NCBI GenBank assembly: GCA_017432025.1 | Contig: JAFRJX010000001.1 | Location: 1-35,402 of the forward strand | DNA: 35,402 nt | Source: Candidatus Saccharimonadota bacterium | GTDB taxonomy: Bacteria > Patescibacteriota > Saccharimonadia > Saccharimonadales > Saccharimonadaceae | Direction: 5' to 3' | Shown: one piece after another, positions 412-20,218 of the stretch | Layout: every line of letters starts with the position of its first letter | Position numbering within the stretch: the stretch's first letter is position 1 | Position numbers and translations under genes: made by a program | The notes under the pieces: generated by a model | What the model was told of the DNA's origin: nothing | What the model saw: only the letters and a program-made list of their open reading frames with translations | The model's database searches: none

Positions 412-521
412 AATTGGTGCCCATAGCGCTGGGGTAATACCTGTTCCCATCCCGAACACAGAAGTCAAGCCCAGTCGCGCCGATTATACTGCTCTGCGGG
501 AAACTAGGAAGGTGCCAAATT
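412..521 (+). rRNA. rrf: 5S ribosomal RNA
   Basis: About 110 nt with the conserved 5S core CCCATCCCGAACACAGAAGT (446-465). The ends TTGGTGCC and GGTGCCAA pair to form helix I with two G-U pairs. It sits ~105 bp after 23S and directly before an intrinsic terminator. Ends are set by the pairing and may shift by 1-2 nt. Confidence 0.95.
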
Positions 522-556: not shown

Positions 557-596
557 AATCCACCCGAACGAAGGTCCATTTAAGGGTGGATTTTTC
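557..596 (+). terminator. Second, weaker terminator-like stem after rrn
   Basis: AATCCACCC (557-565) pairs with GGGTGGATT (584-592) across an 18-nt loop and runs into TTTTT. Its 3' arm lies only ~30 bp before the next start codon. It could be a backup terminator for rRNA transcription or part of the next promoter region. Confidence 0.55.
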
Positions 597-607
597 ATTG
601 CGTTTAT

Positions 608-622
608 GTTATTTTAAAGATA
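608..622 (+). promoter_or_regulatory. Putative -10 box, predicted leaderless start of the gene at 622
   Basis: TGTTATTTT (607-615) is an imperfect extended -10 whose last base is 6 nt before the ATG at 622, the same geometry as the stronger TATAAT boxes elsewhere in the window. No Shine-Dalgarno sequence precedes 622. The match to consensus is modest. Confidence 0.45.
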
Positions 623-2211
623 TGGATGAACTAGACAATAATCAGCCTTTAGATTCGATGGGCGAGCCGATTACGCCACTTGGTGATCGTCCAGTGAATC
701 CTTATGTGCCGAATAATATGAATAATCCGGTGAATGCGCCGAGGAACCCTTTGGCACCAGAACCGGGCGAAATGCCGCCAACGCAAGGTGGTATGATGAA
801 CGAAATGCCAATGGAACAGCCGATGCAACAGGGCTATGGCCAGCCGATGGGGCAACCGATGAATCCGTACGCGAACCAGCCGATGGGCCAGCCAATACAA
901 CAACCAATGGGCCAGCCAACGCAAGGCTATGGGCAACCGATGGGTCAGCCGATGATGTATAGTCAGCCGATTGACTCTTATCCTGAGATGATGAATATGG
1001 GTGCGATGAAGCAGCCGAAGACTGGGGGAATTACTTCTTCGAAAGGTTTCATGATTGGTCTGATTGTCTTTGGGCTAGTTTTGTTCGCAGTGCTTCTGTT
1101 CTTACCAAGTATGCTTCCGAGTGGTTCTGGTGGCGGAGAAGGTGGCAACGAGGGTACTTTGAATGCTATAACGGCGAAATCGGTAGCAGATTATTGTGCG
1201 GCAAATGGTTATACTGATGAAGATACAAGTAACAATTCTATTCTTAAGGATGCGATTGAGACGCATGTTTGCTCAAACAGGGATAAGGGTCTGCAGCTTG
1301 CCTATGCGAAGTTTTCGGGCTCAGCTATAGAAACGACTGCTGCTAAAGAGGTAATCGGTGACATAGAATCACTGAATGGTGCAAAGGTTGTAGATGAAGA
1401 AAACCATTTAGAGATGGTAGCTAACACTGAACGGTATAAGGTCTATATGGTTATCGATAGTAATAGTGTTTTCTATACAATCGTGAATGATACCGATGAT
1501 ATTGAAGGTATTCTCGAAGCCGTGCGTGGCAAGAACGATTTGAACGCTAAATACAAAGATGTCATCAAGAATATGCCGAAAGAAGAAGAGAAAAAAGACA
1601 AAAAGGATGATGATAGTTCCGATGACGGAGATTCCGATGATGATGATTCTGATGATGATGACGAGACGGATACTAGCGATACCAAGGCGTCGGTTAGGGA
1701 TGCGACTAGAAGAAATGATATGAGCCGAGTCGATGTTGCACTGGTGATACACCAAACAAATAATAATACCAAGAGTAATAATTTACCAGGTGCAGGTTGG
1801 TGGAAGGGTAAGGCCGATTTTATGGGTACAAATAACTGTTCCTCAACTGATACAGCATGTTTGTTTGCGCGTGACTATATGAATAGTTCACTGGACGAAG
1901 AAACGATGAAAAACGAATTTGTTGATCCGGATGGGACGCCGTATAGCTTTCTCATTACGAGTAACTGGGCGAAAGAAGGCGATGGGACGCTTGGTGTAAT
2001 AACCCCTGGCGAAGGTGGTGAAAACTCTAAGCTCGTTGAAAAGGATGGTGGTTATACTATTGGTGGCGACAACCCATTCTCCGAACATGTAGTTTATATT
2101 GTGCCGGGTGGACGTTGTGATGGTGAAGTCGTAAACCAATCGCAAAAACGTCATTTCGCAGTGCTTTATAAGCTCGAAGGTGGTGGCGTATACTGTATTG
2201 ATGATCATTAA
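622..2211 (+). CDS. Single-pass membrane protein with pseudopilin-like C-terminal domain
   Basis: 529 residues. Residues 1-140 are a Pro/Gln/Met-rich tail with degenerate GQPM repeats. One membrane helix follows (about 142-164, GLIVFGLVLFAVLLF), then a Gly linker, a globular region, a Lys then Asp/Ser-rich acidic tract (about 326-353), and a C-terminal domain of ~175 residues. That domain opens with RRNDMSRVDVALVIHQTNNN and contains DPDGTPY; it resembles the globular part of type II/IV pseudopilins (RRxDxxxIxxAL, then DPxGxxY). Pilin-like function is inferred and no prepilin cleavage site is seen. Orientation is probably N-in, C-out, with cysteines only in the outer part. A GTG at 586 is in frame but overlaps a terminator stem; ATG 622 fits the promoter spacing. 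It heads an operon with the paralogue at 2226, 14 bp downstream. Confidence 0.85.
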   Translation: MDELDNNQPLDSMGEPITPLGDRPVNPYVPNNMNNPVNAPRNPLAPEPGEMPPTQGGMMNEMPMEQPMQQGYGQPMGQPMNPYANQPMGQPIQQPMGQPTQGYGQPMGQPMMYSQPIDSYPEMMNMGAMKQPKTGGITSSKGFMIGLIVFGLVLFAVLLFLPSMLPSGSGGGEGGNEGTLNAITAKSVADYCAANGYTDEDTSNNSILKDAIETHVCSNRDKGLQLAYAKFSGSAIETTAAKEVIGDIESLNGAKVVDEENHLEMVANTERYKVYMVIDSNSVFYTIVNDTDDIEGILEAVRGKNDLNAKYKDVIKNMPKEEEKKDKKDDDSSDDGDSDDDDSDDDDETDTSDTKASVRDATRRNDMSRVDVALVIHQTNNNTKSNNLPGAGWWKGKADFMGTNNCSSTDTACLFARDYMNSSLDEETMKNEFVDPDGTPYSFLITSNWAKEGDGTLGVITPGEGGENSKLVEKDGGYTIGGDNPFSEHVVYIVPGGRCDGEVVNQSQKRHFAVLYKLEGGGVYCIDDH

Positions 2212-2225
2212 AAAAGGGGTAAGAT

Positions 2226-3725
2226 ATGGATGGGCAAGATAAAAACGGAAATTATGGACAGGGCTCGTTCGGTATGAGTAGCGGACCGAGTTTTGGTTCG
2301 TTTACTTTTGACGAAAGCAAGGTGAAAGTACCAGAGCCGGAGCCGATGCCGGTGCCAGAGCCGATGCCACAACCGGTGGCTCAGTCAGCACCAGAAATGC
2401 CACAACCGCAGCCGGAACAACCACCGATGCCGATGGGGCAGCCTCAGCCAATTGGTCAACCAATGCCGATGGGACAACCAATGCCGGTGAATCAGCCAAT
2501 GCCTGGGGATAACTATCAGGTTACGAACAAGAAGAATTCGAAAGGCTTAGTGATTGGAATAGCGATCGGTGTATTCGTGATTTTAGCGATTGCTGTGACG
2601 GCGATTATTATGTTTGGCCAACCGCCAGCACCAGAACCGGAACCAGCACCAGAGCCGGAACCGATTGACTACGAAGCAGATGTGCCAACTCTAGTTACTA
2701 CTAGGCGTTACTGTGCTACGAGCGGGCTCTATGTTTGGGATCTGCCGGATGAAAAGAGTAGTAGAGAAGCGGTTTATGGTACGGTAAACTGTCGTTACAA
2801 CGAACAGGCGGTCGAAAAAGACGATGGTACCAATGAGGAAGCTGATACCGAAGAGGAAACTGAGGAAGTTGATCTAGATAAAATCGTTGAAGAGCCGGAG
2901 GGCGCGGTGATTGCTCTAGACTATTATGTTCTTACGAAGGATCATAACGAGCTTGAGTCGGTGAAGACACTCCAGGGCGACTATTCCTCATTTGGCTCAG
3001 AGCTTGAAAATAGTACTGATTACAAGATTTTCTACCAATTTAAAGACAATTTCAATTATACAGTGGTGACGTATACAGTCTTTTACAAGAATTCGTTGTT
3101 CTTAATGTCAGCGAAGAATGCGGAAGAGATTGAGACGGCACTCAAGACAATTGGCTTCCCGGAATCTGAACATGAGGTGCCAACTAAGGAATCCGAGGCC
3201 GCAAAGCGAGAGAAGGAGCGCGAACAGGGGAAAGCGACTCCAGCAAAACGTGATGTACTCCGTCGGAACGATATGGCGAGAGTGAGTACGTCTCTCACGC
3301 AATATATGACCAATAATAAAGGGGAATTGCCGGGTCCGAGTGTTTGGACTGCTACGGCAAATTATGCCGGCGAAAATGCCTGTAAGGCCGAGAATACTGC
3401 CTGTAATTTCGTGATGTCATATCTGAATACCACTGATGATAAAAACGATTTCGAAGATCCGAGCGGCGATGTTTATAATGTCTTAATTACTGGAAACATT
3501 GCAGATGGTGGCGAGATTGGAAATACTATCTACAGTGCCGACAGTAAACTCGCGATCCAGAGCAAGAAATACACGATTGCCGGCAGAAACCCGTTTTATG
3601 AGCATGTAGTTTATATCATTCCGGGTGCAAAATGCGATGGCACCGGCGCTAAGGCAGCTAAAAAGGATAATTACGCGGTACTTTACCGCCTAGAAGAAGG
3701 CCAAACTTACTGTCTAAATAATTAG
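2226..3725 (+). CDS. Paralogue: single-pass membrane protein with pseudopilin-like C-terminal domain
   Basis: 499 residues with the same architecture as the preceding gene. There is a Pro/Met/Gln-rich N-terminal tail with PEPMP and GQPMP repeats, one membrane helix at about 107-130 (GLVIGIAIGVFVILAIAVTA), a PEPEPAPEPEP linker, an acidic Glu-rich stretch, and a C-terminal domain starting RRNDMARVSTSLTQYMTNN (about 346 on) with DPSGDVYNV and HVVYIIPGAKCDG. The last motif closely matches HVVYIVPGGRCDG in the upstream protein, so the two arose by duplication. The start is supported by AAGGGGT 5 nt before the ATG. It is probably co-transcribed with the upstream gene. Function is unknown; a surface or pilus-like accessory role is inferred from the pseudopilin-like motifs. 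Confidence 0.87.
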   Translation: MDGQDKNGNYGQGSFGMSSGPSFGSFTFDESKVKVPEPEPMPVPEPMPQPVAQSAPEMPQPQPEQPPMPMGQPQPIGQPMPMGQPMPVNQPMPGDNYQVTNKKNSKGLVIGIAIGVFVILAIAVTAIIMFGQPPAPEPEPAPEPEPIDYEADVPTLVTTRRYCATSGLYVWDLPDEKSSREAVYGTVNCRYNEQAVEKDDGTNEEADTEEETEEVDLDKIVEEPEGAVIALDYYVLTKDHNELESVKTLQGDYSSFGSELENSTDYKIFYQFKDNFNYTVVTYTVFYKNSLFLMSAKNAEEIETALKTIGFPESEHEVPTKESEAAKREKEREQGKATPAKRDVLRRNDMARVSTSLTQYMTNNKGELPGPSVWTATANYAGENACKAENTACNFVMSYLNTTDDKNDFEDPSGDVYNVLITGNIADGGEIGNTIYSADSKLAIQSKKYTIAGRNPFYEHVVYIIPGAKCDGTGAKAAKKDNYAVLYRLEEGQTYCLNN

Positions 3726-3751
3726 TGGTGAGCTAGTAAATCTTATCTGTT

Positions 3752-3785
3752 TATGATATAATTAACCGTATACTTGTTAGGGGGT
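3752..3785 (+). promoter_or_regulatory. Extended -10 promoter and AGGGGGT ribosome binding site
   Basis: TGATATAAT (3754-3762) gives a predicted start near 3769. AGGGGGT (3779-3785) then lies 7 nt before GTG 3793. No convincing -35 is seen. Confidence 0.65.
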
Positions 3786-3792
3786 GTTTTTA

Positions 3793-4236
3793 GTGCAGGT
3801 AGGTTCTTTACCTTTATGGGCTATGATTCTCATTGGAAGTGTAATTTTTTCGTTTGTAATAGGCTTTATCAACCCATACGTTACAAAGGCAACGCTGATC
3901 CGGCTCGAAAATGTCGATAAAGAAGACTGGTCTAAACCGCGGCCGACGGTGACTATAAAAGAGCGGCTATCGCCAATCATCGTGGTAGATTTTATCTTTA
4001 TAATACTATTCGTCGGCTTTATGTGTTTTCTAATCCAAGGTTTGATGCCGATGTCTAACAGGTTTGGCGGAGGCGTATTAGTGACACTGATGGTGGTGCT
4101 TTTTTCGATTATTGCTTTAGGACTAACCTTTATCATCGACATGATGGCTTATATTACAGGGCTGGAGCTTACTGCGACCAGATTAAAACGACACTTCGAA
4201 AGGCAATATGGTGCCAGAATCGAAAGAGAATCATAG
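3793..4236 (+). CDS. Small multi-pass membrane protein, island paralogue 1
   Basis: 147 residues from GTG 3793. The spacing to AGGGGGT and the alignment of its N-terminus (GSLPLWAMI) with those of the next two genes (GTLPIWSII, STFPFWVIV) both favour this over the in-frame GTG at 3784. Features shared with the paralogues are a membrane helix near the N-terminus ending in GF/GY..PYVTK, a basic loop of ~40 residues, a second helix, an FGGG motif, a third hydrophobic segment, and a charged tail with ERQYG. It matches no family I recognise. The gene is monocistronic, with its own promoter and a strong terminator. Confidence 0.82.
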   Translation: MQVGSLPLWAMILIGSVIFSFVIGFINPYVTKATLIRLENVDKEDWSKPRPTVTIKERLSPIIVVDFIFIILFVGFMCFLIQGLMPMSNRFGGGVLVTLMVVLFSIIALGLTFIIDMMAYITGLELTATRLKRHFERQYGARIERES

Positions 4237-4244
4237 TTAAATCT

Positions 4245-4270
4245 AAAACCCCGTTTTACGGGGTTTTTAT
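4245..4270 (+). terminator. Intrinsic terminator after island gene 1
   Basis: AAAACCCCG (4245-4253) pairs with CGGGGTTTT (4259-4267), followed by a T-rich run. Confidence 0.9.
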
Positions 4271-4291
4271 CTTGAAAACGCTTAAGATATA

Positions 4292-4346
4292 TTGACATTT
4301 CTAATAAAGTGTGCTATAATAATAGTTATATTCTATCTAGGGGGGT
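4292..4346 (+). promoter_or_regulatory. Consensus promoter and AGGGGGGT site of island gene 2
   Basis: TTGACA (4292-4297), 17-bp spacer, TGCTATAAT with TATAAT at 4315-4320: a perfect vegetative-type promoter with extended -10. AGGGGGGT (4339-4346) is 6 nt before ATG 4353. Confidence 0.88.
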
Positions 4347-4352
4347 ATAAAA

Positions 4353-4802
4353 ATGGAAGGTACATTACCAATCTGGTCTATCATTCTGGTTTTGGGAGCA
4401 GGAGTGTTATTCTCCTTGGGATATGTGAAACCATATATTTCAAAGGAGAACAAAGCGGAAATTATCGCGTATGCAAAGAATGAGAACATCGGTAAACCGC
4501 CAGTAGTGATCATCCGTGATCACATGACACCGGCGATGAGCCTGGCACTGGTAATAGGGATTGCACTCGCCTCTCTGATACTGTTTATTGTCGAAACTTT
4601 CGGCAACATGGTGCAGCATTTTGGCGGTGGTTTCTTCGGTGTACTGATCACAATCGGTCTCATGTTCTTGCTCTACAGTTTTTCGTTTATTGCACTGCTC
4701 TTTCTTCACCTAATCGGTGAAACCGTCACTTCAATCTCGTTTGAGCGGCTTTACAGGGATTGCTACGGTCTCGAAGTGAAATACGAATCAGAAACTAAAT
4801 AG
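4353..4802 (+). CDS. Small multi-pass membrane protein, island paralogue 2
   Basis: 149 residues with three hydrophobic segments (about 8-27, 63-87, 95-125). It aligns over its length with its neighbours: LPIWSIILVLGAG and GYVKPYISKE at the start, FGGGFFGVLI in the middle, and FERLYRDCYGLEVKYE at the end. The loop after the first helix is basic, suggesting that it and the C-terminal tail face the cytoplasm. No catalytic motif is visible and function is unknown. The gene has a perfect promoter, a shared-type AGGGGGGT site and its own UUCG-loop terminator, so it is an independent and probably highly expressed transcription unit. Confidence 0.85.
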   Translation: MEGTLPIWSIILVLGAGVLFSLGYVKPYISKENKAEIIAYAKNENIGKPPVVIIRDHMTPAMSLALVIGIALASLILFIVETFGNMVQHFGGGFFGVLITIGLMFLLYSFSFIALLFLHLIGETVTSISFERLYRDCYGLEVKYESETK

Positions 4803-4808
4803 ACCATC

Positions 4809-4836
4809 ATCCCCATCTTCGGATGGGGATTTTTCT
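4809..4836 (+). terminator. Intrinsic terminator with UUCG tetraloop
   Basis: ATCCCCATC (4809-4817), TTCG loop, GATGGGGAT (4822-4830), then a T-run. C(UUCG)G is an unusually stable tetraloop. Confidence 0.92.
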
Positions 4837-4837
4837 A

Positions 4838-4892
4838 TGGACAATTTAGCATAAATGTTGTATAATATATCTATTCTGCATTTGAAGGGGGT
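4838..4892 (+). promoter_or_regulatory. Promoter and AGGGGGT site of island gene 3
   Basis: TGGACA (4838-4843), 17-bp spacer, TATAAT (4861-4866). AGGGGGT (4886-4892) is 6 nt before ATG 4899. The -35 follows the upstream terminator's T-run by a base or two. Confidence 0.82.
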
Positions 4893-4898
4893 GCTGGA

Positions 4899-5360
4899 AT
4901 GCACGAAAGCACATTTCCGTTTTGGGTTATCGTCCTGTTACTCGGCGCAGCTTTCGCATATTTTGTGGGGTACGCTAGTCCGTATGTCACGAAAGAGTCT
5001 AGGGAAGAGGTGAAGAAATACGTTAAAGGGGAAAACGCCATCCGGCCAAAAATCATTATCAAAAATAGAACAGATTCGGAAACCGTAATTTGTCTATCGG
5101 TCGGGTTGGCAATCGTATGGATGATTTTCTTCTTTTGTGACGGTTTTTCTAACCTCATTATGAGGCTCGGCGGTGGCACTTTTGCATCCATCTTTGCAGT
5201 TCTCATCTTCTTAATCAGCTTCGGGCTGATATTCTTTGGGATGCTGTTTATGTATCTCTTTGGAGCGACCGTGTCGTCCGGAATGCTAGAGAGACGCTAC
5301 AAAGATCGTTACAATGTCGATGCTGAACTGGTGCTCGATGAACCGGAGATAAACCATTAA
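4899..5360 (+). CDS. Small multi-pass membrane protein, island paralogue 3
   Basis: 153 residues, third member of the family. It shares FPFWVIVLLLGAAFAYFVGY and SPYVTKESREEVKKYVKGEN near the N-terminus (compare PYISKENKAEIIAYAKNEN in paralogue 2), a central LGGGTFASI and the tail ERRYKDRYNVDAEL. Three hydrophobic segments are seen. The conserved PYV/IT/SK boundary after helix 1, the GGG before the last hydrophobic segment and the ER.Y...YG-like tail define the family. No known domain is recognised. It is a monocistronic unit with its own promoter and terminator. Confidence 0.85.
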   Translation: MHESTFPFWVIVLLLGAAFAYFVGYASPYVTKESREEVKKYVKGENAIRPKIIIKNRTDSETVICLSVGLAIVWMIFFFCDGFSNLIMRLGGGTFASIFAVLIFLISFGLIFFGMLFMYLFGATVSSGMLERRYKDRYNVDAELVLDEPEINH

Positions 5361-5365
5361 CCTGT

Positions 5366-5392
5366 ATCCCCTGTTTTACAGGGGATTTTTTA
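5366..5392 (+). terminator. Intrinsic terminator after island gene 3
   Basis: ATCCCCTGT (5366-5374) pairs with ACAGGGGAT (5378-5386), followed by TTTTTT. Confidence 0.92.
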
Positions 5393-5419
5393 TTACCTCT
5401 GTTTTAGGCATAAGTATTA

Positions 5420-5507
5420 TTGACTTTTTTGGCGTTTTGTGCTATAATATAGAGTATAAAATGTTTTTTGGGACATTTTAGAATTTTAATAGATGTTTTT
5501 AGGGGGT
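5420..5507 (+). promoter_or_regulatory. Consensus promoter with a structured 56-nt leader
   Basis: TTGACT (5420-5425), 17-bp spacer, TGCTATAAT with TATAAT at 5443-5448. The leader carries a hairpin AAAATGT/ACATTTT (5458-5464 with 5473-5479) and AGGGGGT (5501-5507) just before ATG 5511. The hairpin has no T-run after it, so it is not a standard terminator. Confidence 0.82.
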
Positions 5508-5510
5508 AAG

Positions 5511-6011
5511 ATGAAAAACATATTTTTAGACGAAGCTTCACGGGCGGTTAATCATGGTGGTCTTGAAGGCACCATCTACATGATTTTCAAGTACGGCAAC
5601 TTTTCGATGGTGGACGATGAAGGCATGAGTATCGAAGAGAAGATAAGCTACGGAACCGAAATGCTCGATATCGAAGTAAAAAACTTCGAGAAACGAAAGA
5701 AGATGGTTAAGCAGCAAAATAGCATATGCTACTTCTTGATTGGACTGATTCTGATAGGGTTAGTCATCGCATTATTTAGCACCGATTATCTATCGGCCGA
5801 TGAAACTATGGTAATTAGCGTATTGTCTTTGCTGATATCCTGCATGCTAATTTATGAAACTGAAGAGTCAAAGTCTAAAAATACCAATCTACTGGTGCTG
5901 TTTTGGGTCGCCTACGTTGAGAGAATGCTCTTTTATGTGGATGATCTGGCACCAGAAGTGACTTTTCCGGCTGCCATTAAGGTAGGAAATGCAATTAAAG
6001 ACGTATCTTAG
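5511..6011 (+). CDS. Small two-helix membrane protein, island gene 4
   Basis: 166 residues from ATG 5511. The in-frame ATG 5493 is upstream of the AGGGGGT site and is less likely. It has a soluble N-terminal part of ~65 residues ending in a charged segment (VKNFEKRKKMVKQQ), two hydrophobic segments (about 68-88 and 98-114), then a second soluble part. It is not an obvious paralogue of genes 1-3, but it shares their promoter type, Shine-Dalgarno sequence and single-gene layout. No family is recognised. Common regulation with its neighbours is inferred from these signals. Confidence 0.8.
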   Translation: MKNIFLDEASRAVNHGGLEGTIYMIFKYGNFSMVDDEGMSIEEKISYGTEMLDIEVKNFEKRKKMVKQQNSICYFLIGLILIGLVIALFSTDYLSADETMVISVLSLLISCMLIYETEESKSKNTNLLVLFWVAYVERMLFYVDDLAPEVTFPAAIKVGNAIKDVS

Positions 6012-6023
6012 AAAACATCGCCG

Positions 6024-6051
6024 AACTCCCGAGCAATCGGGAGTTTTTTAT
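6024..6051 (+). terminator. Intrinsic terminator after island gene 4
   Basis: AACTCCCGA (6024-6032), GCAA tetraloop, TCGGGAGTT (6037-6045), T-run. Confidence 0.92.
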
Positions 6052-6081
6052 CTGTAAAATATCGTTTAAGCATAAGCAGTA

Positions 6082-6136
6082 TTGACAATTTTGCTAAAGT
6101 GTGCTATAATAGTAGTAAGAATTAGTTAAAGGGGGT
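6082..6136 (+). promoter_or_regulatory. Consensus promoter and AGGGGGT site of island gene 5
   Basis: TTGACA (6082-6087), 17-bp spacer, TGCTATAAT with TATAAT at 6105-6110. AGGGGGT (6130-6136) lies 7 nt before ATG 6144. Confidence 0.88.
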
Positions 6137-6143
6137 CAATAAA

Positions 6144-6515
6144 ATGACTAATCTCGCACTTTACAATATCCCGTTCTATGTGTACGAAGGACTGTTTACA
6201 TTCATTCTGATGGTGATACTCGGGTTATCTTACATCAAGGTATCGAAGAGTAACCGCTCTGGTAAACGGTTTGAACATACTGAACGCTTCGGCGTTGAGA
6301 CGATTCTGATGTTTGCCTTCGGTGGTGCCGTACTGTTCGTTCTCTCATTCGTGAGGAAAGCAGTGACGATTCCATCCAGCTTCTTCTTCAAAATCGTAAT
6401 GTTCGCGCTGATGATTGGAATGGTTTTCGTGATTGCACTCGCCAATGTTGGCATTTCGATGTTCGCATCAAACCTTGCCATTAATATCGCCGAGAAAGAT
6501 CTCGAACACCGCTAG
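6144..6515 (+). CDS. Small three-helix membrane protein, island gene 5
   Basis: 123 residues with three hydrophobic segments (about 13-30, 52-70 and 80-105) and a basic loop after the first (KVSKSNRSGKRFEHTERF). The third segment is rich in Met/Phe/Val. It has no close sequence match to genes 1-3, although its layout (helix, basic loop, two helices, short charged tail) is similar. No known family is recognised. It ends at a terminator shared with the convergent nusA gene. Confidence 0.8.
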   Translation: MTNLALYNIPFYVYEGLFTFILMVILGLSYIKVSKSNRSGKRFEHTERFGVETILMFAFGGAVLFVLSFVRKAVTIPSSFFFKIVMFALMIGMVFVIALANVGISMFASNLAINIAEKDLEHR

Positions 6516-6520
6516 AACAA

Positions 6521-6552
6521 AAATCCCCGTCTTTAAGACGGGGATATTTTTT
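6521..6552. terminator. Bidirectional terminator between island gene 5 and nusA
   Basis: ATCCCCGTCT (6523-6532) pairs with AGACGGGGAT (6536-6545). There is an A-run on the left and a T-run on the right, so both strands see a hairpin followed by U residues. It can end both convergent transcripts. Confidence 0.9.
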
Positions 6553-6561
6553 GTCTTAAAA

Positions 6562-7668
6562 TTATTCGTCTTCGGCTTCTTCAAGCGCGGAGAGGAGGGA
6601 ATCCTCGACGTTCTGTTTTTTCTTCTTAGGAGCGGATTTCATGAGCTCGATATCGATTTCGTAGCCGGTAAGCTTAGAAGCGAGGCGAACGTTTTGGCCT
6701 TTGCTACCAATCGCGATCGATTGTTGATCTTCGTTGACGTAGACCTTGGCTTTCTTGCCCTCGATGTCGACTTTGTTGATTTCGGCTGGACTAAGAGCTT
6801 CGCGGATGTATTCAGATGGATTGTCGCTCCAGGTGACGATGTCGATTTTCTCTTTGTCACCGATTTCGTTCATCACGGCTTGGACGCGGACACCACGGCC
6901 ACCCACGAAGGTGCCAACTGGGTCAATGCCAGGAACGGTGGCGGTAACCGCAATCTTGGTGCGGCGGCCAGCTTCACGGGCGATACCACAGATTTTGACG
7001 GTGCCATTCTCGATTTCTGGAACTTCCTGGCGGAAGAGGCACTCGACGAATTCGGCGGAGCCACGGGAGAGAATGAGTTGGGCGCCTTTGTCGCCACGCT
7101 CAATGTTCTTGATATAAACCTTAATACGGCTGCCAACCGAGTAGTATTCGCCGTCGATTTGCTCGGAACGTGGGATGATACCACTAGCGCGACCGAGGTC
7201 GACACGGACGAGTCTGGCTTCCACACGGGAAACAGTACCGGTCACGATGGTACCGATTTTATCTTCAAAGGCAGTCAGTACTGCGTCATTTTCAGCTTCG
7301 CGGAGGCGTTGAATCACGACCTGCTTAGCGGTCATAGCGGCAACGCGGCCAAAAGTGGTAACTTTAGATTTTTCTTCGATCACATCGCCAACTTTGGCAC
7401 CTTTGCCAGCTTCAGCGAGTGGGATTTCGGTTGATGGGTTGTAAGCGAGACCATCCTCGATGACTTCGCGGGATACAAAAACATCAGCTTCGCCGGTTTT
7501 GGTGTTAAGGGTGGCACGGACATTCATGTCGCGGTCGCCGTTATCCTTACGCCATGCAGCGGCAATAGCTTGTTCGATAACATTCAGAACTGTCTCTTTT
7601 GGGAGACCTTTTTCTTCAGCAATAATGTCAACCATGCTGGACATTTGCTTCAAATCAAGATTTTCCAT
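6562..7668 (-). CDS. nusA: Transcription termination/antitermination factor NusA
   Basis: 368 residues, the length of a NusA without the C-terminal acidic repeats found in E. coli. NusA binds RNA polymerase and nascent RNA and modulates pausing, termination and antitermination in the cytoplasm. The N-terminal polymerase-binding domain covers about 1-130 (IIAEEKGLPKETVLNVIEQA), S1 about 135-205, then KH1 and KH2. KH1 contains VPGIDPVGTFVGGRGVRVQA and KIDIVTWS; KH2 contains AIGSKGQNVRLASKLTGYEI. The KH1 loop reads VGGRG where VGMRG/VGVRG is usual. AAAGGAAA precedes the ATG at a normal distance. It is monocistronic with its own promoter; in many bacteria nusA follows rimP, which is not the case here. 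Confidence 0.96.
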   Translation of the reverse strand: MENLDLKQMSSMVDIIAEEKGLPKETVLNVIEQAIAAAWRKDNGDRDMNVRATLNTKTGEADVFVSREVIEDGLAYNPSTEIPLAEAGKGAKVGDVIEEKSKVTTFGRVAAMTAKQVVIQRLREAENDAVLTAFEDKIGTIVTGTVSRVEARLVRVDLGRASGIIPRSEQIDGEYYSVGSRIKVYIKNIERGDKGAQLILSRGSAEFVECLFRQEVPEIENGTVKICGIAREAGRRTKIAVTATVPGIDPVGTFVGGRGVRVQAVMNEIGDKEKIDIVTWSDNPSEYIREALSPAEINKVDIEGKKAKVYVNEDQQSIAIGSKGQNVRLASKLTGYEIDIELMKSAPKKKKQNVEDSLLSALEEAEDE

Positions 7669-13602: not shown

Positions 13603-13627
13603 AAATGGTCTTTGGGCCATTTTTTTA
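13603..13627 (+). terminator. Terminator of tRNA-Leu
   Basis: AAATGGTC (13603-13610), TTTG loop, GGCCATTT (13615-13622), then a T-run. It overlaps the stop codon of the convergent FISUMP gene. Confidence 0.85.
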
Positions 13628-16600
13628 TTTTGCGACGCAACGGATTGCGACACCATTACTTCTGGCGGAGCCACCGAAAGAAGTACCCGAATCAGTAAGA
13701 CTCATGATGTCCATATTTTCACTACTGGACCAAGTTGAAGTCCAATAGTAGCCAGATGTGCCTTGATATGAGACGTTGCTGAAGAACAGACCGGAGAGAA
13801 CGAAGCCAGCTCCACCGTTTGCGATTGATGCTCTCATAAGGCCACTAGCACTGTATTGTTGATAGATGGTTCGTGTTTCTCCGGAAGTGCCACCGGTTGG
13901 TAGTCTCCACCCAGCAGGGCAGATATCCTCGTAAGCACTACTACTATTGGAGTTTCCCGTTTTTGTTCCGGCAGAAGCGGCATAGTAGTTATAGAGTGTG
14001 CCGTAGGCGGTACCGGAAGTTGAGTCTGTACCAGAAGTGTTAATAAATTCACCAGCGGTATAAGTATTTGTTCCAGATGTCTTCTTCCAGCCATTAAAAG
14101 TGGAAGCTGTTATTGTCGAAGAGATATTAGTATTAGTAATGGTGAGATCATTAGTGAGCGTAGTGCGCCCTAGATCCAGGTTTTCGGCCATCCAGATTTT
14201 TCCGTCTTTCATCTTGGCGACTTTGTAGGTTCTATTATCACGATTATCTATAAGGTCATATGTGGTGCTGTCTGCCATTGAAGCGAGGACGGTTGCCTTT
14301 TGACTAGAGGATAATTCTTTAAAATGCTGCATATAGGTTATATTAGAAATAGTTAGCGGTTCGTCCAATATACATCGTATGGATTTCCCGGTATAACCGT
14401 AGGTTAAAGAATTTGTTGGATCGACGGTTGAAGTACTAAGACTCATATTTCGAACATAGCTATTAAGCCTAGTAGAGGACCAGTAGTAGCCATTATTCCA
14501 ATTCGTTGGAGTAGAATTACTGAAACTGCCAGCGAGGGCGAAGGCGGCTCCGCCGTTTGCGACTGACGCCCTCATAAGAGCGTAAGAATTATATTTTTGG
14601 TAGAGAGCGCTAAACTCTCCGAAATTTCCACCGGTTGGAAGTCTCCACCCAGCAGGGCAAATATCATATTGGGGGCTATTGGTGTTGTTGCTTCCGGAAA
14701 TGGTTCCGGCAGAGGCAGCGTAGTAGTTGTAAAGCGTGCCAAATGCAGTATCAGATGTTGCGTCAGAACCGGCCGTACTGATGAATTCACCGGCATCATA
14801 AGTAGCAGAACCAGATGTTTTCTTCCAACTGTTAAATGTGGAAGCCGTCACTGTTGTGGATAGATTCGTGTTGGAGCTAGTGAGATCTGTCGTAAGTGCG
14901 GAACGACCGAGGTCCAAATTCTCCATCATCCAACATCTGCCATCATTTAGACGTTGAATGGTATAGGTATGATTATCACGAGCGTCAACAACTTGGGAAG
15001 GCGTAGAAGTACATTTATTAGATGATATGTTTTGTATAGATTCTCCTGCGGTGACCGTAAGGGTCGCGTCCATTGCGCCCATGGTGAAGGTCGTGGACTG
15101 AGTGGTAGTTGAACCTATAGTACCAGAAGTCGTAGACCAACCCGTAAATGAATATCCTGAAGATAGTTCAACGTCAATAGTATAGGTTTCTCCTTCTTCA
15201 AGCTGGATAGTACTGTTATTATAGAGGTAGTTACTTCCCCTGATTATGATTCTTGAAACTCCAGTACCAATGGATGTTTTAAGGGTATGAAGTGGCTTTT
15301 TAACGATACATCGAATAGCGTAGCCGTAGTCGCGACTGCTGATGTTGACTGGATAGACGCTTGACGTGTCAAGGGATAGGCCATACATTTCGGTGTTGCT
15401 GTATCTAGTGGTGGCCCAGTAGCGACCAACGCTGTTTGCAAGGGTCGGGGTACTGTTAGTGAAATAGCCAGCGAGGGCGAAAGCGGCTCCGCCATTTGCA
15501 ATTGGTGCCCGCATGAGAGCATTAGAATTATATTGTAAACTAAGGGCTCGGAACTCTCCTGTATTGCCACCGGTTGGAAGTCTCCACCCAGCTGGGCAGA
15601 TGTCATAGATAGCATCTTTATTGTTGGTTGACCCTGAAATATTCCTCATAGTGGCGGCGGCATAATTATATAAAGTACCATAAGGAGTACCAGAAGTTGG
15701 ATCCGTGCCGGATACATTGATGAATTCACCATTAACGAAGGTTTGTGTGCCGGAGGTCTTTTTGAAATCATCAAAGTTAGTGTAGGTGGCATTATCTGCG
15801 TAGTTAGTATTATCGGCAGTTAGATTATCTAGGAGGGTTTCTCTGCCTAAGTCTAGGTTTTCGGCCATCCAGATTCTGCCATCCTTCATCTTGGCAATGG
15901 AATAGGATTTATTGTCGCGATTGTCTATCAGGTTGTAGGTAGTGCTATCTGCCATGGAGTTTGCAACGGCAATGAGATCACCCTTCTTAAGATTCTTGAA
16001 ATCTTGAAGATATGCCAGATCAGAGATTTGTTTTTTGAGAACACATCGTACAGAGCGACCAGCAGAACGATTCGAGAGACTATAAGGGTTGCCTCCCGTT
16101 GCGGTGACTAATAAATATGACATCTTCGTATTATCAGATGCTGTAGATGACCAGTAGGTACCACGAGTACCTGTACTATATGGAGCGCCGTCCATGAAGA
16201 TTCCGTCAAGAGTAAAGCCTGCTCCGCCGCTTGTGGTTGGGGTATTCAGTACGGAACCAGATCCATATTCTTGGTAGAGTAGATTATAAAGATTGTCAAA
16301 TTCTTCGCCTTGACCACCAGTTGGAAGTCGCCATCCGGCTGGGCAAATATCATATATTACATTACCATCCGTAGTGCTCCCTGTGATGGTTCCTGCCGAA
16401 GCGGTGTAGAAATTATAGAGGGTGCCATATGGAGTATCGGAAGTGGGGTCGTTTCCGGTAATATTAATAAACTCGCCAGCGTCATATGTATCGGTTCCGG
16501 AGGTTGTTTTCCAGCTATTAAAGGTTGAGGCAGTGACGGTTGTGGAAATATTAGTGTTTGAAGATGTTAGATCGGTGGTAAGGGCTGTTCGGCCGAGGTC

Positions 16601-19600
16601 TAAGCTCTGCGTCATCCAACAATTGCCGTCAATAAGGCGTTGAATAGTATAGGAATGCATATCACGGTTATCATAAACGGTGGTTGGAGTTGAAGTGCAA
16701 ATTGAAGAACTCATGTTTTGCATAAATGGACCACTAAAGGTGGCAGCAGCGGTAAGGGTAGTATTGCCGGTAATACTTCTTAAATATGTAGAATCGGAGC
16801 TTGCCGTGTCGATGCTACCGGTTGTTGCAGTCCAACTGGAGAAGGAATAACCAGGCCCTAAGGAGGCATTAATAACATACCTTGTGCTTTCTTCGAGGGT
16901 AATAGTTCCATTGTTTGCTACAGAAACACCATTAATAGTAACGTCTGTGATGCCAGTTCCATACGAAACGGTTACAGTGTGAGTTGATTTTTTTAGGATA
17001 CAGCGAATGGCGCGTCCGTAACTACGATTACTACTGCTGTTTGGGGTTACACTCGATGTGTTTAGGTATAAGGAGTATCTATTTGTACCACTGCTTCTCA
17101 TAGAAGACCAGTAGGAAGCACTACTGCCCTGATTGGTTGGAGTGCTATTGCCAAAATAACCAGCAAGAGCGAAAGCGGCTCCTCCGTCTGCAATTCCAGC
17201 TCGCATTTTTGCAAGAGTGTTATATGAACTATTGCTGTAAAGAACACCAAATTCGCCCCAGCTATCGCCGACTGGAAGTCTCCATCCGGCCGGACAGATA
17301 TCATAGAGGGCGTCATACTCATGAGTGCTTCCAGTGATGGTACCGGCGGATGCTGCAACGTAATTGTAGAGGGTTCCATATGGAGTACCGGAAGTGCTAT
17401 CTGTTCCGGAGACATTAATGAACTCGCCGTCATCAAAGGATAGCGAGCCGGAAGTTTTCTTCCAACCGTTAAAGGTGGAAGCATCAACAGTAGTGGCAAT
17501 ATTTGTGTTCGTGGATGTAAGATTTGTTGTGAGGGTAGTACTGCCAAGATCCAGGTTTTCCATCATCCAGCAGCGACCATCGTCGAGACGTTGAACTGTA
17601 TATATATGATTGTCGCGAGTATCTTTTACATAAGATGGGGTAGTGGTGCAGTTACTTAAGGAAAGATTTTGCATAGTATAACCGTTGAAGGATGCGGTGG
17701 CTGTGATGGTGGCATCACTAGTGCCAACGGTAAAAGTTGTAGATTGGCTGGTAGTTGAGCCGATGGTGCCAGAGGTGGCAGACCAATTTGTAAAGGAATA
17801 GCCAGTTGCGACAACCGCATCGATGGAATAACTCATGCCTTCCTCAAGAGTGATAGAGGTATTCTCAGGTACGAGAAGGGTACCACTTACATCGACTTGT
17901 GTAACACTTGTTCCGTCGTATGCAATAGTAATGGTGTGAGACGGCTTTCTAGCCACGCACCGCACGGCCGCGCCTAGATTACGGTTGGCCTCATATTCTA
18001 ATCCTCCCCAATCATCATTGGAGTACATCCACATGGAATCGGAATAACCTGTGGCTGTTGAAGTCCAGTAACTACCGGATTCTCCCTGCGACTGTAAGCT
18101 TGATTGAGAAAACTCACCAGAATATGGGAATGCTGCACCACCGTTAGCGATGGCTGAATGCATACTACTGCCACTATAATTGCTATCAAGACTATTGACT
18201 TCGCTTTCAATTGGTAATCTCCATCCGGCCGGACAAATATCGGAATGAGCATTATAATCGTATGCGTTTCCGGCGACAGTACCAGCGGAGGCGGCATAGT
18301 AATTATAAAGCGTTCCGTATGAAGTGCCGGTCGTAGAATCTGTCCCGCTAAGCGAAACGAATACACCTGAAGTTAAACTGGCTGAGCTAGTGGTCTTTTT
18401 CCAGCTATTAAAGGTGGAAGCGGTCACACTGGCAAATGTATTAGTGTTGGCGCTGGTAAGATCGGTGGTAAGTGTCGTGCGGCCAAGATTAAGGTTTTCG
18501 GCCATCCAGATTCTGCCATCTTTCAATTTAGCAACAGCATAGACTCGATTATCGCGATTGTCGGTCAGGTTATAGGTGGTGTTTTCTGCCATGGAAGCAG
18601 TGATTCCTGCGAGTTCATTTTTGGTTAGATTCTTAAAGTCTTGAAGATAATTAAGATCGGAGATTTGTTTTTTAAGTATGCATCGTATAGCATACCCACT
18701 GTAGCGAGGGCTGACGCCGTTTGAAACATATGATGTACTAACGACTAGATTATACATATATGTGCTACTGTCTCTTTTAGAGGACCAATAGTAGCCATAG
18801 TTGCCTTGGCTGGTAGGAGTGCTATTGGTAAAGTCACCAGAGAGGGCGAAAGCAGCTCCGCTGTTTGCGACTGGCGCTCTCATAAGAGCATTGGAATTAT
18901 ATTCTGCATAGAGAGCCTGAAATTCTCCGGTGCTACCGCCGGTTGGAAGGCGCCAGCCAGCCGGACAAATATCATATTGAGCGTCACTGGTATTTGTTCC
19001 TCCGGTAATAGTTCCGGCAGAAGCAGCATAATAGTTATAAAGGGTGCCGTATGCAGTGCCGGAAGTTGCGTCCGTGCCCTCAATAGGTATTAATTCGCCG
19101 GCGATGTTGGTCGCATTGCCGGAGGTTTTTCTCCAGCCGTTAAAGGTAGATGTAGTAACAGTGGAGCTAATATTGGTATTGGCGCTGGTAAGGTTTGTGG
19201 TAAGAGGAGTACGGCCGAGATCCAGGTTTTCCATCATCCAACAATTACCATCGTCGAGACGCTGTACGGTATAGATATGATTATCACGATTGTCTTTGAC
19301 TAGCCTAGGGGTTGAGGTACAAAGAACGCTACTAAGGTTTTGCATATCTGAACCAATAAATGCTACATTGGCGGTAAGAGTGGCATCGGTGGTACTAATG
19401 GCGTAGGTCGTAGATTGAGTATTACTAGAGCCAATTGTGCCAGAAGTAGCAGACCAGGAATCAAATGAATAGAGGGTCTGGTCGTAGGTCATATTGATTG
19501 GATATGATGCGCCCCGAATTAATTTAACGGTTTCGCCATTTGCAATAGTTACACCGCCGACGGTTACTCCGGTGACGCCGGTACTATAGTTTACTGTGAG

Positions 19601-20218
19601 GATGGAAGACGGGATGATGTTGGCGGTTGCTTCAAGGATTAGATTTTCGTTAATATAAGTGCCGGATGGCAACGAAGTATCGGCACGGGCGCCGAGGGAA
19701 ATAGTGTAGTTTTTAGCGGTGGTGTTTGCGGTCGAAGTGCGGTCTAAAGTGACAGCAGTTGTGCTGACGCCAAAATACCGGCTATTAGATTCAGAATTGT
19801 AGAAGTTCGGTTTAAAGCCCCAACGATTATTAAGGGTGGTGTTGCTGCTAGTTGAGAATTGTTCAGCGGTTACGCTGGAAGCAAGGGAAGTGAATGAGTT
19901 GTCGTCTTTGTCGATGGTAGTTTTGGTGCTACGAACCGATAATGCGTAGCCGGTGTAGTTACTGGTTGCTACAGAGAAGGAAATATCATTAGCACCTGAG
20001 GTAGTAGCAAAGACACCAGTTTTTGATGGGTCAATTGTGATGCTTGCTGCATTATTAATGGAGGTCATAGTAATAGCGGTTTCACCGGTGAGGTCGGTGA
20101 TGGCTTCGGCAGATTCTTGATTCTTAGCGGCTGGGTTGATGATGGAACCAAAAAGGATTACTGCACAGATGGATGCAGCTATGCCAACCGCACGATGTCC
20201 CTTCCGTATTTTTAACAT
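13625..20218 (-). CDS. Giant secreted protein with seven FISUMP domains
   Basis: 2197 residues. An N-terminal signal peptide (hydrophobic AVGIAASICAVILFGSII, likely cleaved after SAEA near 39) precedes a beta-rich domain (about 40-200) shared with other secreted proteins in this window. After that come four repeats of a beta-sheet module containing YSF..W.ATSGTIGS and seven FISUMP domains starting near 292, 543, 849, 1166, 1422, 1728 and 1981. FISUMP (Fibrobacter succinogenes major paralogous domain) hallmarks are DNRDNH.YTVQRL, CWMMENLDLG, YDICPAGWRLPTGG and AIRCILKK. Type A domains (1, 3, 4, 6) have four conserved Cys; type B (2, 5, 7) lack the first two. No LPXTG and no C-terminal membrane helix are seen, so how it stays at the surface is unknown. 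Adhesion or binding is a guess. No Shine-Dalgarno sequence precedes the ATG. Confidence 0.93.
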   Translation of the reverse strand: MLKIRKGHRAVGIAASICAVILFGSIINPAAKNQESAEAITDLTGETAITMTSINNAASITIDPSKTGVFATTSGANDISFSVATSNYTGYALSVRSTKTTIDKDDNSFTSLASSVTAEQFSTSSNTTLNNRWGFKPNFYNSESNSRYFGVSTTAVTLDRTSTANTTAKNYTISLGARADTSLPSGTYINENLILEATANIIPSSILTVNYSTGVTGVTVGGVTIANGETVKLIRGASYPINMTYDQTLYSFDSWSATSGTIGSSNTQSTTYAISTTDATLTANVAFIGSDMQNLSSVLCTSTPRLVKDNRDNHIYTVQRLDDGNCWMMENLDLGRTPLTTNLTSANTNISSTVTTSTFNGWRKTSGNATNIAGELIPIEGTDATSGTAYGTLYNYYAASAGTITGGTNTSDAQYDICPAGWRLPTGGSTGEFQALYAEYNSNALMRAPVANSGAAFALSGDFTNSTPTSQGNYGYYWSSKRDSSTYMYNLVVSTSYVSNGVSPRYSGYAIRCILKKQISDLNYLQDFKNLTKNELAGITASMAENTTYNLTDNRDNRVYAVAKLKDGRIWMAENLNLGRTTLTTDLTSANTNTFASVTASTFNSWKKTTSSASLTSGVFVSLSGTDSTTGTSYGTLYNYYAASAGTVAGNAYDYNAHSDICPAGWRLPIESEVNSLDSNYSGSSMHSAIANGGAAFPYSGEFSQSSLQSQGESGSYWTSTATGYSDSMWMYSNDDWGGLEYEANRNLGAAVRCVARKPSHTITIAYDGTSVTQVDVSGTLLVPENTSITLEEGMSYSIDAVVATGYSFTNWSATSGTIGSTTSQSTTFTVGTSDATITATASFNGYTMQNLSLSNCTTTPSYVKDTRDNHIYTVQRLDDGRCWMMENLDLGSTTLTTNLTSTNTNIATTVDASTFNGWKKTSGSLSFDDGEFINVSGTDSTSGTPYGTLYNYVAASAGTITGSTHEYDALYDICPAGWRLPVGDSWGEFGVLYSNSSYNTLAKMRAGIADGGAAFALAGYFGNSTPTNQGSSASYWSSMRSSGTNRYSLYLNTSSVTPNSSSNRSYGRAIRCILKKSTHTVTVSYGTGITDVTINGVSVANNGTITLEESTRYVINASLGPGYSFSSWTATTGSIDTASSDSTYLRSITGNTTLTAAATFSGPFMQNMSSSICTSTPTTVYDNRDMHSYTIQRLIDGNCWMTQSLDLGRTALTTDLTSSNTNISTTVTASTFNSWKTTSGTDTYDAGEFINITGNDPTSDTPYGTLYNFYTASAGTITGSTTDGNVIYDICPAGWRLPTGGQGEEFDNLYNLLYQEYGSGSVLNTPTTSGGAGFTLDGIFMDGAPYSTGTRGTYWSSTASDNTKMSYLLVTATGGNPYSLSNRSAGRSVRCVLKKQISDLAYLQDFKNLKKGDLIAVANSMADSTTYNLIDNRDNKSYSIAKMKDGRIWMAENLDLGRETLLDNLTADNTNYADNATYTNFDDFKKTSGTQTFVNGEFINVSGTDPTSGTPYGTLYNYAAATMRNISGSTNNKDAIYDICPAGWRLPTGGNTGEFRALSLQYNSNALMRAPIANGGAAFALAGYFTNSTPTLANSVGRYWATTRYSNTEMYGLSLDTSSVYPVNISSRDYGYAIRCIVKKPLHTLKTSIGTGVSRIIIRGSNYLYNNSTIQLEEGETYTIDVELSSGYSFTGWSTTSGTIGSTTTQSTTFTMGAMDATLTVTAGESIQNISSNKCTSTPSQVVDARDNHTYTIQRLNDGRCWMMENLDLGRSALTTDLTSSNTNLSTTVTASTFNSWKKTSGSATYDAGEFISTAGSDATSDTAFGTLYNYYAASAGTISGSNNTNSPQYDICPAGWRLPTGGNFGEFSALYQKYNSYALMRASVANGGAAFALAGSFSNSTPTNWNNGYYWSSTRLNSYVRNMSLSTSTVDPTNSLTYGYTGKSIRCILDEPLTISNITYMQHFKELSSSQKATVLASMADSTTYDLIDNRDNRTYKVAKMKDGKIWMAENLDLGRTTLTNDLTITNTNISSTITASTFNGWKKTSGTNTYTAGEFINTSGTDSTSGTAYGTLYNYYAASAGTKTGNSNSSSAYEDICPAGWRLPTGGTSGETRTIYQQYSASGLMRASIANGGAGFVLSGLFFSNVSYQGTSGYYWTSTWSSSENMDIMSLTDSGTSFGGSARSNGVAIRCVAK
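13628..19345 (-). repeat. Internal tandem duplication of FISUMP modules
   Basis: Within the giant gene the unit A-domain + B-domain + beta repeat recurs. Unit 1 is about 19345-17675 (557 residues) and unit 2 about 16723-15038 (562 residues), with a shorter A + beta-repeat unit at 17674-16724 and a final A + B unit at 15037-13628. A-to-B spacing is 251, 256 and 253 residues, so the copies arose by duplication of a fixed block. Residue positions come from the MQN, IQN or MA(E/D) that begins each domain. Confidence 0.85.

Follow-up and report, generated by a model that had tools for sequence, protein, structure and literature searches.

Orphan immunity gene islands, described for example in Bacteroidales, are acquired clusters serving interbacterial defence, as two reports outline them (PMC12247911, PMC10470768). 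Here we describe a locus of a different make-up in the Saccharibacteria. The window, by which we mean the entire 35,402-nt stretch that was analysed (contig G000:C7), belongs to the 859-kb genome of a gut-type Saccharibacterium; near-identical contigs are known from uncultured Saccharibacteria, including one from a roe deer omasum. Its ORFs include five membrane-protein genes, g1 to g5, all on the plus strand and spanning positions 3793-6515. Our main reading is that they occupy a recombination-prone slot with abundant, independently expressed envelope proteins that function in recognition, exclusion or immunity. For this statement as a whole we estimate a probability of roughly 0.35, and we consider its anatomical and evolutionary part highly probable.

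Gene arrangement and the 3-TM protein family

The features of the locus, from the left end of the window to nusA, are as follows.

1-311: 3′ end of the 23S rRNA, at the left end of the window
413-520, plus strand: 5S rRNA (Rfam RF00001, 81.6 bits), bordering the slot on the left
586-2211, plus strand: slot cargo, ORF read as a protein that combines a Pro/Gln-rich N-terminus with one TM and, at the C-terminus, a pseudopilin-like domain; no match in a Pfam scan
2226-3725, plus strand: slot cargo, ORF read as a second Pro/Gln-rich/TM protein with a similar pseudopilin-like C-terminal domain; in G003 and G179 a relative adjoins the 3-TM gene
3754-3762, plus strand: promoter P1, extended -10 TGATATAAT with no good -35, aligned in relatives
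3793-4236, plus strand: g1, 3-TM family member, 147 aa, GTG start, SD GGGGG at 3780-3784
4246-4266, plus strand: terminator T1; in G074 the stem is kept and the loop changed
4292-4320, plus strand: promoter P2, TTGACA-17-TATAAT, 12/12, extended -10
4353-4802, plus strand: g2, 3-TM family member, 149 aa, SD AGGGGGGT
4809-4830, plus strand: terminator T2
4838-4866, plus strand: promoter P3, TGGACA-17-TATAAT, 11/12
4899-5360, plus strand: g3, 3-TM family member, 153 aa
5366-5386, plus strand: terminator T3
5420-5448, plus strand: promoter P4, TTGACT-17-TATAAT, 11/12
5511-6011, plus strand: g4, 166 aa, about 2 TM, outside the 3-TM family
6023-6046, plus strand: terminator T4, between g4 and g5
6082-6110, plus strand: promoter P5, TTGACA-17-TATAAT, 12/12
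6144-6515, plus strand: g5, membrane protein of 123 aa with three helices, probably a distant relative of g1-g3 that has been shortened
6523-6545, no strand assigned: two-way terminator between g5 and convergent nusA, serving both
6562-7668, minus strand: nusA (ORF), right border of the slot, conserved across the genus

Further along the window, positions 13625-20218 on the minus strand encode a 2197-aa protein of repeated FISUMP-like units (DNRDNxxYxVxKLxDGxxWMxENLDLG ... ICPAGWRLP).

The preliminary description of this DNA had recognized g1-g3 as paralogues, which the comparison confirmed (E 1e-28 and 3e-14); a sequence search found no further members in their own genome. A profile built from g1-g3 and their relatives yielded 32 genes in 24 of the 174 genomes of the genus, and a clear gap separates these members (E ≤ 2e-23) from the next matches (≥8e-5). 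When the search was extended over Patescibacteria, nothing convincing appeared in samples of the order (197 genomes) and the phylum (239 genomes); the weak matches beyond the genus were partial, mostly lay within larger ORFs and had E values of 2e-4 or worse, and were judged to be due to chance. Between species, two members are often close to 20% identical. Kept across the family are the motif TLPxW, a glycine at the end of TM1, NPYVxK, an arginine before TM2, and YYxxRYG.

Based on a structure model of g2 (pLDDT 85, pTM 0.73) and on the charge distribution, the family is predicted to have three TM helices in N-out/C-in topology, in line with the envelope location proposed earlier. The model places helices at residues 7-25, 60-89 and 93-138 and a small inner strand set at 27-29, 52-56 and 142-144; the inner segments have 7.7 and 4.3 Lys+Arg, versus 0.3 and 0.8 outside, consistent with the positive-inside rule. 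From an outer N-terminus, the predicted chain runs through TM1 into a basic cytoplasmic loop with N-P-Y-V-x-K, then through TM2, a short outer loop and a long TM3 to a cytoplasmic tail with YY..RYG. Conservation is highest in TM1 and the inner motifs and lowest in the outer loop.

Scans of the family against Pfam, NCBIfam, PHROGs and PADLOC gave scattered chance-level matches only; the PADLOC model DpdH was matched by just two of 30 members (best E 1e-3), with nothing else consistent in that collection. Hits of the profile among PDB sequences were weak and confined to designed helical proteins and chimeric receptors. The fold search returned no PDB or BFVD match (best Foldseek E 2.3), which is not proof of a new fold, and the VIA Z (≤7.5) lies within the range expected of helical bundles. 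With g2 or g3 as query, since the family profile lacks a conserved block, viral contigs and phage and plasmid records gave nothing, and we found no mention of such genes in the literature on Saccharibacterial transcriptomes and genetics. On these searches, the 3-TM family is undescribed and genus-restricted, and the initial statement that no known family could be recognized agrees with the Pfam, NCBIfam, PDB and fold searches.

The remaining two genes had both been called non-paralogues, which stands for g4 and probably fails for g5. By its sequence, g4 is unrelated to g1-g3 (hhalign against the family profile 0.2%), and among the 174 genus genomes it was found in G000 and G074 only, 32-35% identical. 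The family HMM search of these 174 genomes missed g5. Aligned directly with the profile, g5 nevertheless scored 51-55% in hhalign, far above other membrane proteins of the genome (≤5.1%) and reversed ones (4.1%), and a low-confidence model (pLDDT 65) gives it helices at 3-36, 51-75 and 79-122. The match is weak, and we read g5 as a probable truncated member far removed from g1-g3, a probable degenerate fourth paralogue.

The slot between 5S rRNA and nusA

In 20 of the 24 carriers the 3-TM gene adjoins the 5S rRNA and/or a convergent nusA gene; this number includes G119 and G170, each with one border only on the contig. The gene lies beyond nusA, downstream of an RNase J-like gene, in G175, G100 and G079, and elsewhere, among surface-protein genes, in G173. 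Most carriers have one cassette, G026 has two and the window's group three; two are seen in G119, where the contig ends inside g2. The usual single-gene cassette consists of an extended -10 promoter, a G-rich SD, the gene and a terminator.

A separate observation concerns the single cassettes of L011, L031, L102 and L104, in which the -35 region (TGGATT) shares nucleotides with the 3′ arm of the hairpin that terminates the rRNA operon; terminator and promoter are thus fused.

Many relatives have an empty slot; in G004, nusA follows directly after the 5S terminator. All carriers fall within one subclade of the NusA tree, and close sisters can differ by an empty slot (G004 vs G111, G061 vs G181). 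At least ten gains or losses are needed on this tree, five of them forced by well-supported branches. The genes also diverge fast, with branch lengths of about 0.5-2.6 in the 3-TM family versus 0.03-0.2 for NusA.

Comparison with G074 points to exchange of individual cassettes. The stretch 4300-5050 (P2, g2, P3 and the start of g3) is ~97% identical between the two genomes, in contrast to ~85% in the flanking genes, 56% protein identity for g1 and 35% for g4; dS is 0.05 for g2 and 0.65 for nusA. Such a tract amid diverged flanks, together with the low dS of g2, indicates a recent exchange of one cassette. Since natural competence has been demonstrated in a cultivated Saccharibacterium (PMC10633639), cassette exchange by transformation is plausible.

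Patchy presence, empty slots and mixed cargo would also be expected if the site behind the rRNA terminator were merely permissive, a landing place for selfish or neutral orphan genes whose arrival or loss matters little to the cell. We consider this very improbable: dN/dS is 0.1-0.4 for most pairs, so the genes are kept by selection, promoters and SDs are conserved as well, and the family motifs persist across members that are only ~20% identical. The dN/dS values of close comparisons gave no sign of positive selection.

The other slot cargo consists mostly of secreted or surface proteins. Neighbours of this kind occur in G149, G173, G175, G179, G091, G003 and the window, and include subtilase-like, papain-like, pseudopilin-like and FISUMP-like proteins, several with P[ND]TG, a TM and a basic tail. 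The 3-TM proteins might therefore be accessory factors for surface display, helping the slot's surface and secreted proteins to become inserted, folded or anchored. We regard this as unlikely, because the 3-TM gene is alone in the slot in at least 11 carriers and the slots of G070 and G060 hold surface proteins without a 3-TM gene.

Some of these cargo proteins have features of their own. The subtilase-like and papain-like proteases of the slot (L098 579-1814; L095 484-2268, after turning; L035 2356-4380) end in APDTG, APNTG or TPNTG followed by a TM and a basic tail, and this sequence pattern suggests a sortase-type anchor without the leading Leu. Three large surface proteins (L091 683-2542, after turning; L092 2333-4147; L020 3431-5038, after turning) carry a sortase-like P[ND]TG with TM and basic residues near the N-terminus, an unusual placement, after which come a second TM and an ectodomain rich in Ser/Thr. 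Pro/Gln-rich/TM/pseudopilin-like proteins recur beside 3-TM genes (window 586-3725; L025 about 1083-1800; L095 2920-3822, after turning) and diverge fast, with ~70% DNA identity where nusA has 95-99%.

Control signals of the single-gene cassettes

According to the preliminary description, the five genes form an island in which each has its own promoter and ribosome-binding site, four of the promoters with a near-consensus -35 at 17 bp. This was borne out. At 17 nt spacing, the sigma-70 match is 12/12 for g2 and g5 and 11/12 for g3 and g4; P1 has an extended -10 only. All five genes have an SD with a run of five or six G, and a hairpin terminator follows each of them, including g4, the gene for which the earlier account had left it out. 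Promoter sites of at least 11/12 number four in the island versus 0.04 expected from island shuffles, and promoter density is 1.4 per kb per strand versus 0.09 in the remaining genome. A terminator and a TATAAT box occur together in 4/4 island gaps versus 4/94 same-strand gaps elsewhere (195 kb; Fisher P = 2e-5), and ribosome-binding sites with five or more G in 5/5 island genes versus 6/150 background genes (P = 7e-7). The contrast drawn with an otherwise tightly packed genome was also right: background genes have a median gap of 11.5 nt and 33% overlap, where the background for gaps and SDs comprises eight 20-kb genome samples plus the window, in which ORFs were called by a simple program that overlooks short genes.

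In alignments with G074, G170 and G119, the -35, extended -10 and SD are kept nearly letter for letter and the terminator stems are retained with altered loops; promoter and SD thus persist among related genomes despite diverged coding sequence. This conservation, together with the excess over chance, shows that the control signals of the island are real. P5 is 72% identical over 74 nt to the stretch from P2 to the SD. Each island gene is probably expressed independently and strongly, as had been proposed, and from the promoter, SD and terminator signals we infer a high, steady expression of the cassettes.

The signals are not peculiar to the island. The promoter, TTGACN-17-TGnTATAAT, has about 50 copies in the genome. 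A strict search pattern occurs 50 times, versus four times for the reversed pattern; the TG extension is present in 40 of these 50 sites, and many are also alike in their T-rich spacer. This is the general strong promoter of the genome, and the idea of an island-specific promoter was rejected on the same count. The G-rich SD also precedes putative ribosomal protein L16 and L14 genes (named by sequence reading) and unrelated soluble single-gene units. As an additional detail of the ~50 promoters in G000, the T-rich spacer often reads TTTTTxGCAxxxTGTGC, besides the common -35 and extended -10.

These findings bear on the suggestion that the shared control signals mark the five genes as one co-regulated functional set. 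The genes are indeed adjacent, with matching promoters and SDs. The same signals, however, drive unrelated genes throughout the genome, so that their match indicates strong separate expression and not a common function. Membership is not conserved either: most carriers have one cassette only, so the five genes need not co-occur, and in G170 g4 is absent and g5 lies behind a P4-like promoter. In G074, the g4-g5 gap is 37 nt long and has no promoter, and g4 and g5 are therefore probably cotranscribed there. A functional set of five thus lacks support and is very unlikely.

Proposed role and comparison with described systems

We propose that, in one genus of Saccharibacteria, a fixed slot between the rRNA operon and the convergent nusA has the island as its cargo. 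In the window's lineage this cargo comprises three 3-TM paralogues, g5 as their probable degenerate fourth, and the unrelated g4. As each cassette carries its own signals, single cassettes can disappear, be duplicated or be exchanged without the others; the likely route would be natural transformation, with the conserved 5S and nusA flanks as sites of recombination. A constant scaffold would be formed by TM1 and the motifs on the cytoplasmic side, and the variable part by TM2, the outer loop and TM3.

The most likely function of the 3-TM proteins is recognition, exclusion or immunity at the membrane, because control signals of a strong, constitutive type coincide with the autonomy of single genes, recurrent gain and loss, an increase in copy number and fast divergence over a constant inner scaffold. 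Their targets might be bacteriocins, phage or a partner cell. We looked for a partner toxin, a phage link and a defence-family match in the Pfam, NCBIfam, PHROGs and PADLOC scans and in viral, phage and plasmid records, and found none. Three further points count against recognition: the 3-TM protein would present little of itself to the outside, uncommon in a receptor or decoy; the close comparisons show no positive selection in their dN/dS; and the neighbouring surface or secreted proteins seen in several carriers also fit an accessory role.

A function without recognition has some appeal as well. Abundant small structural proteins that shape the envelope or its lipids, tuned to the membrane or host of each species, would agree with the strong control signals, the small all-membrane proteins and purifying selection. 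The family is, however, undetected in ~86% of the genus genomes, and repeated gain and loss and replacement by exchange would be odd for such proteins; we consider this explanation possible but doubtful. Recognition, exclusion or immunity, our preferred reading, can also be put in a more specific form: the episymbiont would keep interchangeable, constantly expressed membrane proteins of this undescribed family behind its rRNA operon, swap them cassette by cassette through natural transformation, and use them for resistance to phages, bacteriocins or partner cells or for telling these apart. This full scenario is rather unlikely as it stands.

Little is known of the genes that Saccharibacteria use in encounters with hosts, rivals and phages, and the fixed slot is a place to look for them in every genome of the genus. 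Its replaceable cassettes offer a ready set of natural variants for testing, and their strong native units of promoter, SD and terminator are possible genetic parts for Saccharibacteria.

Among the described systems, orphan immunity islands, to the extent that the two reports characterize them (PMC12247911, PMC10470768), resemble the slot in that its genes are patchy, rapidly evolving and without a cognate toxin. Unlike those islands, the slot genes have no matching immunity family in Pfam, NCBIfam or PADLOC; no recombinase was noticed beside them, and they encode 3-TM proteins with a promoter each. Colicin immunity proteins (PF03857) are likewise small and multi-TM. The sequence match to them is, however, at chance level (E 0.13-0.15) and below the curated cut-off: g3 reached 12.5 bits versus a gathering threshold of 25.8, and across the family two of 30 members matched (best E 0.13). 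The tandem five-TM proteins of Gram-positives (TIGR01218) share the arrangement of small membrane-protein paralogues in tandem. The slot proteins have three TM, and their match to this family stays below the cut-off (E 0.38, 10.4 bits versus 35). Like integron gene cassettes, the slot contents form a row of single-gene units gained and lost singly. No attC-like boundary repeats were found in 3700-6620, where all repeats are promoters, terminators or coding stretches, and unlike integron cassettes, those of the slot carry their own promoters and terminators.
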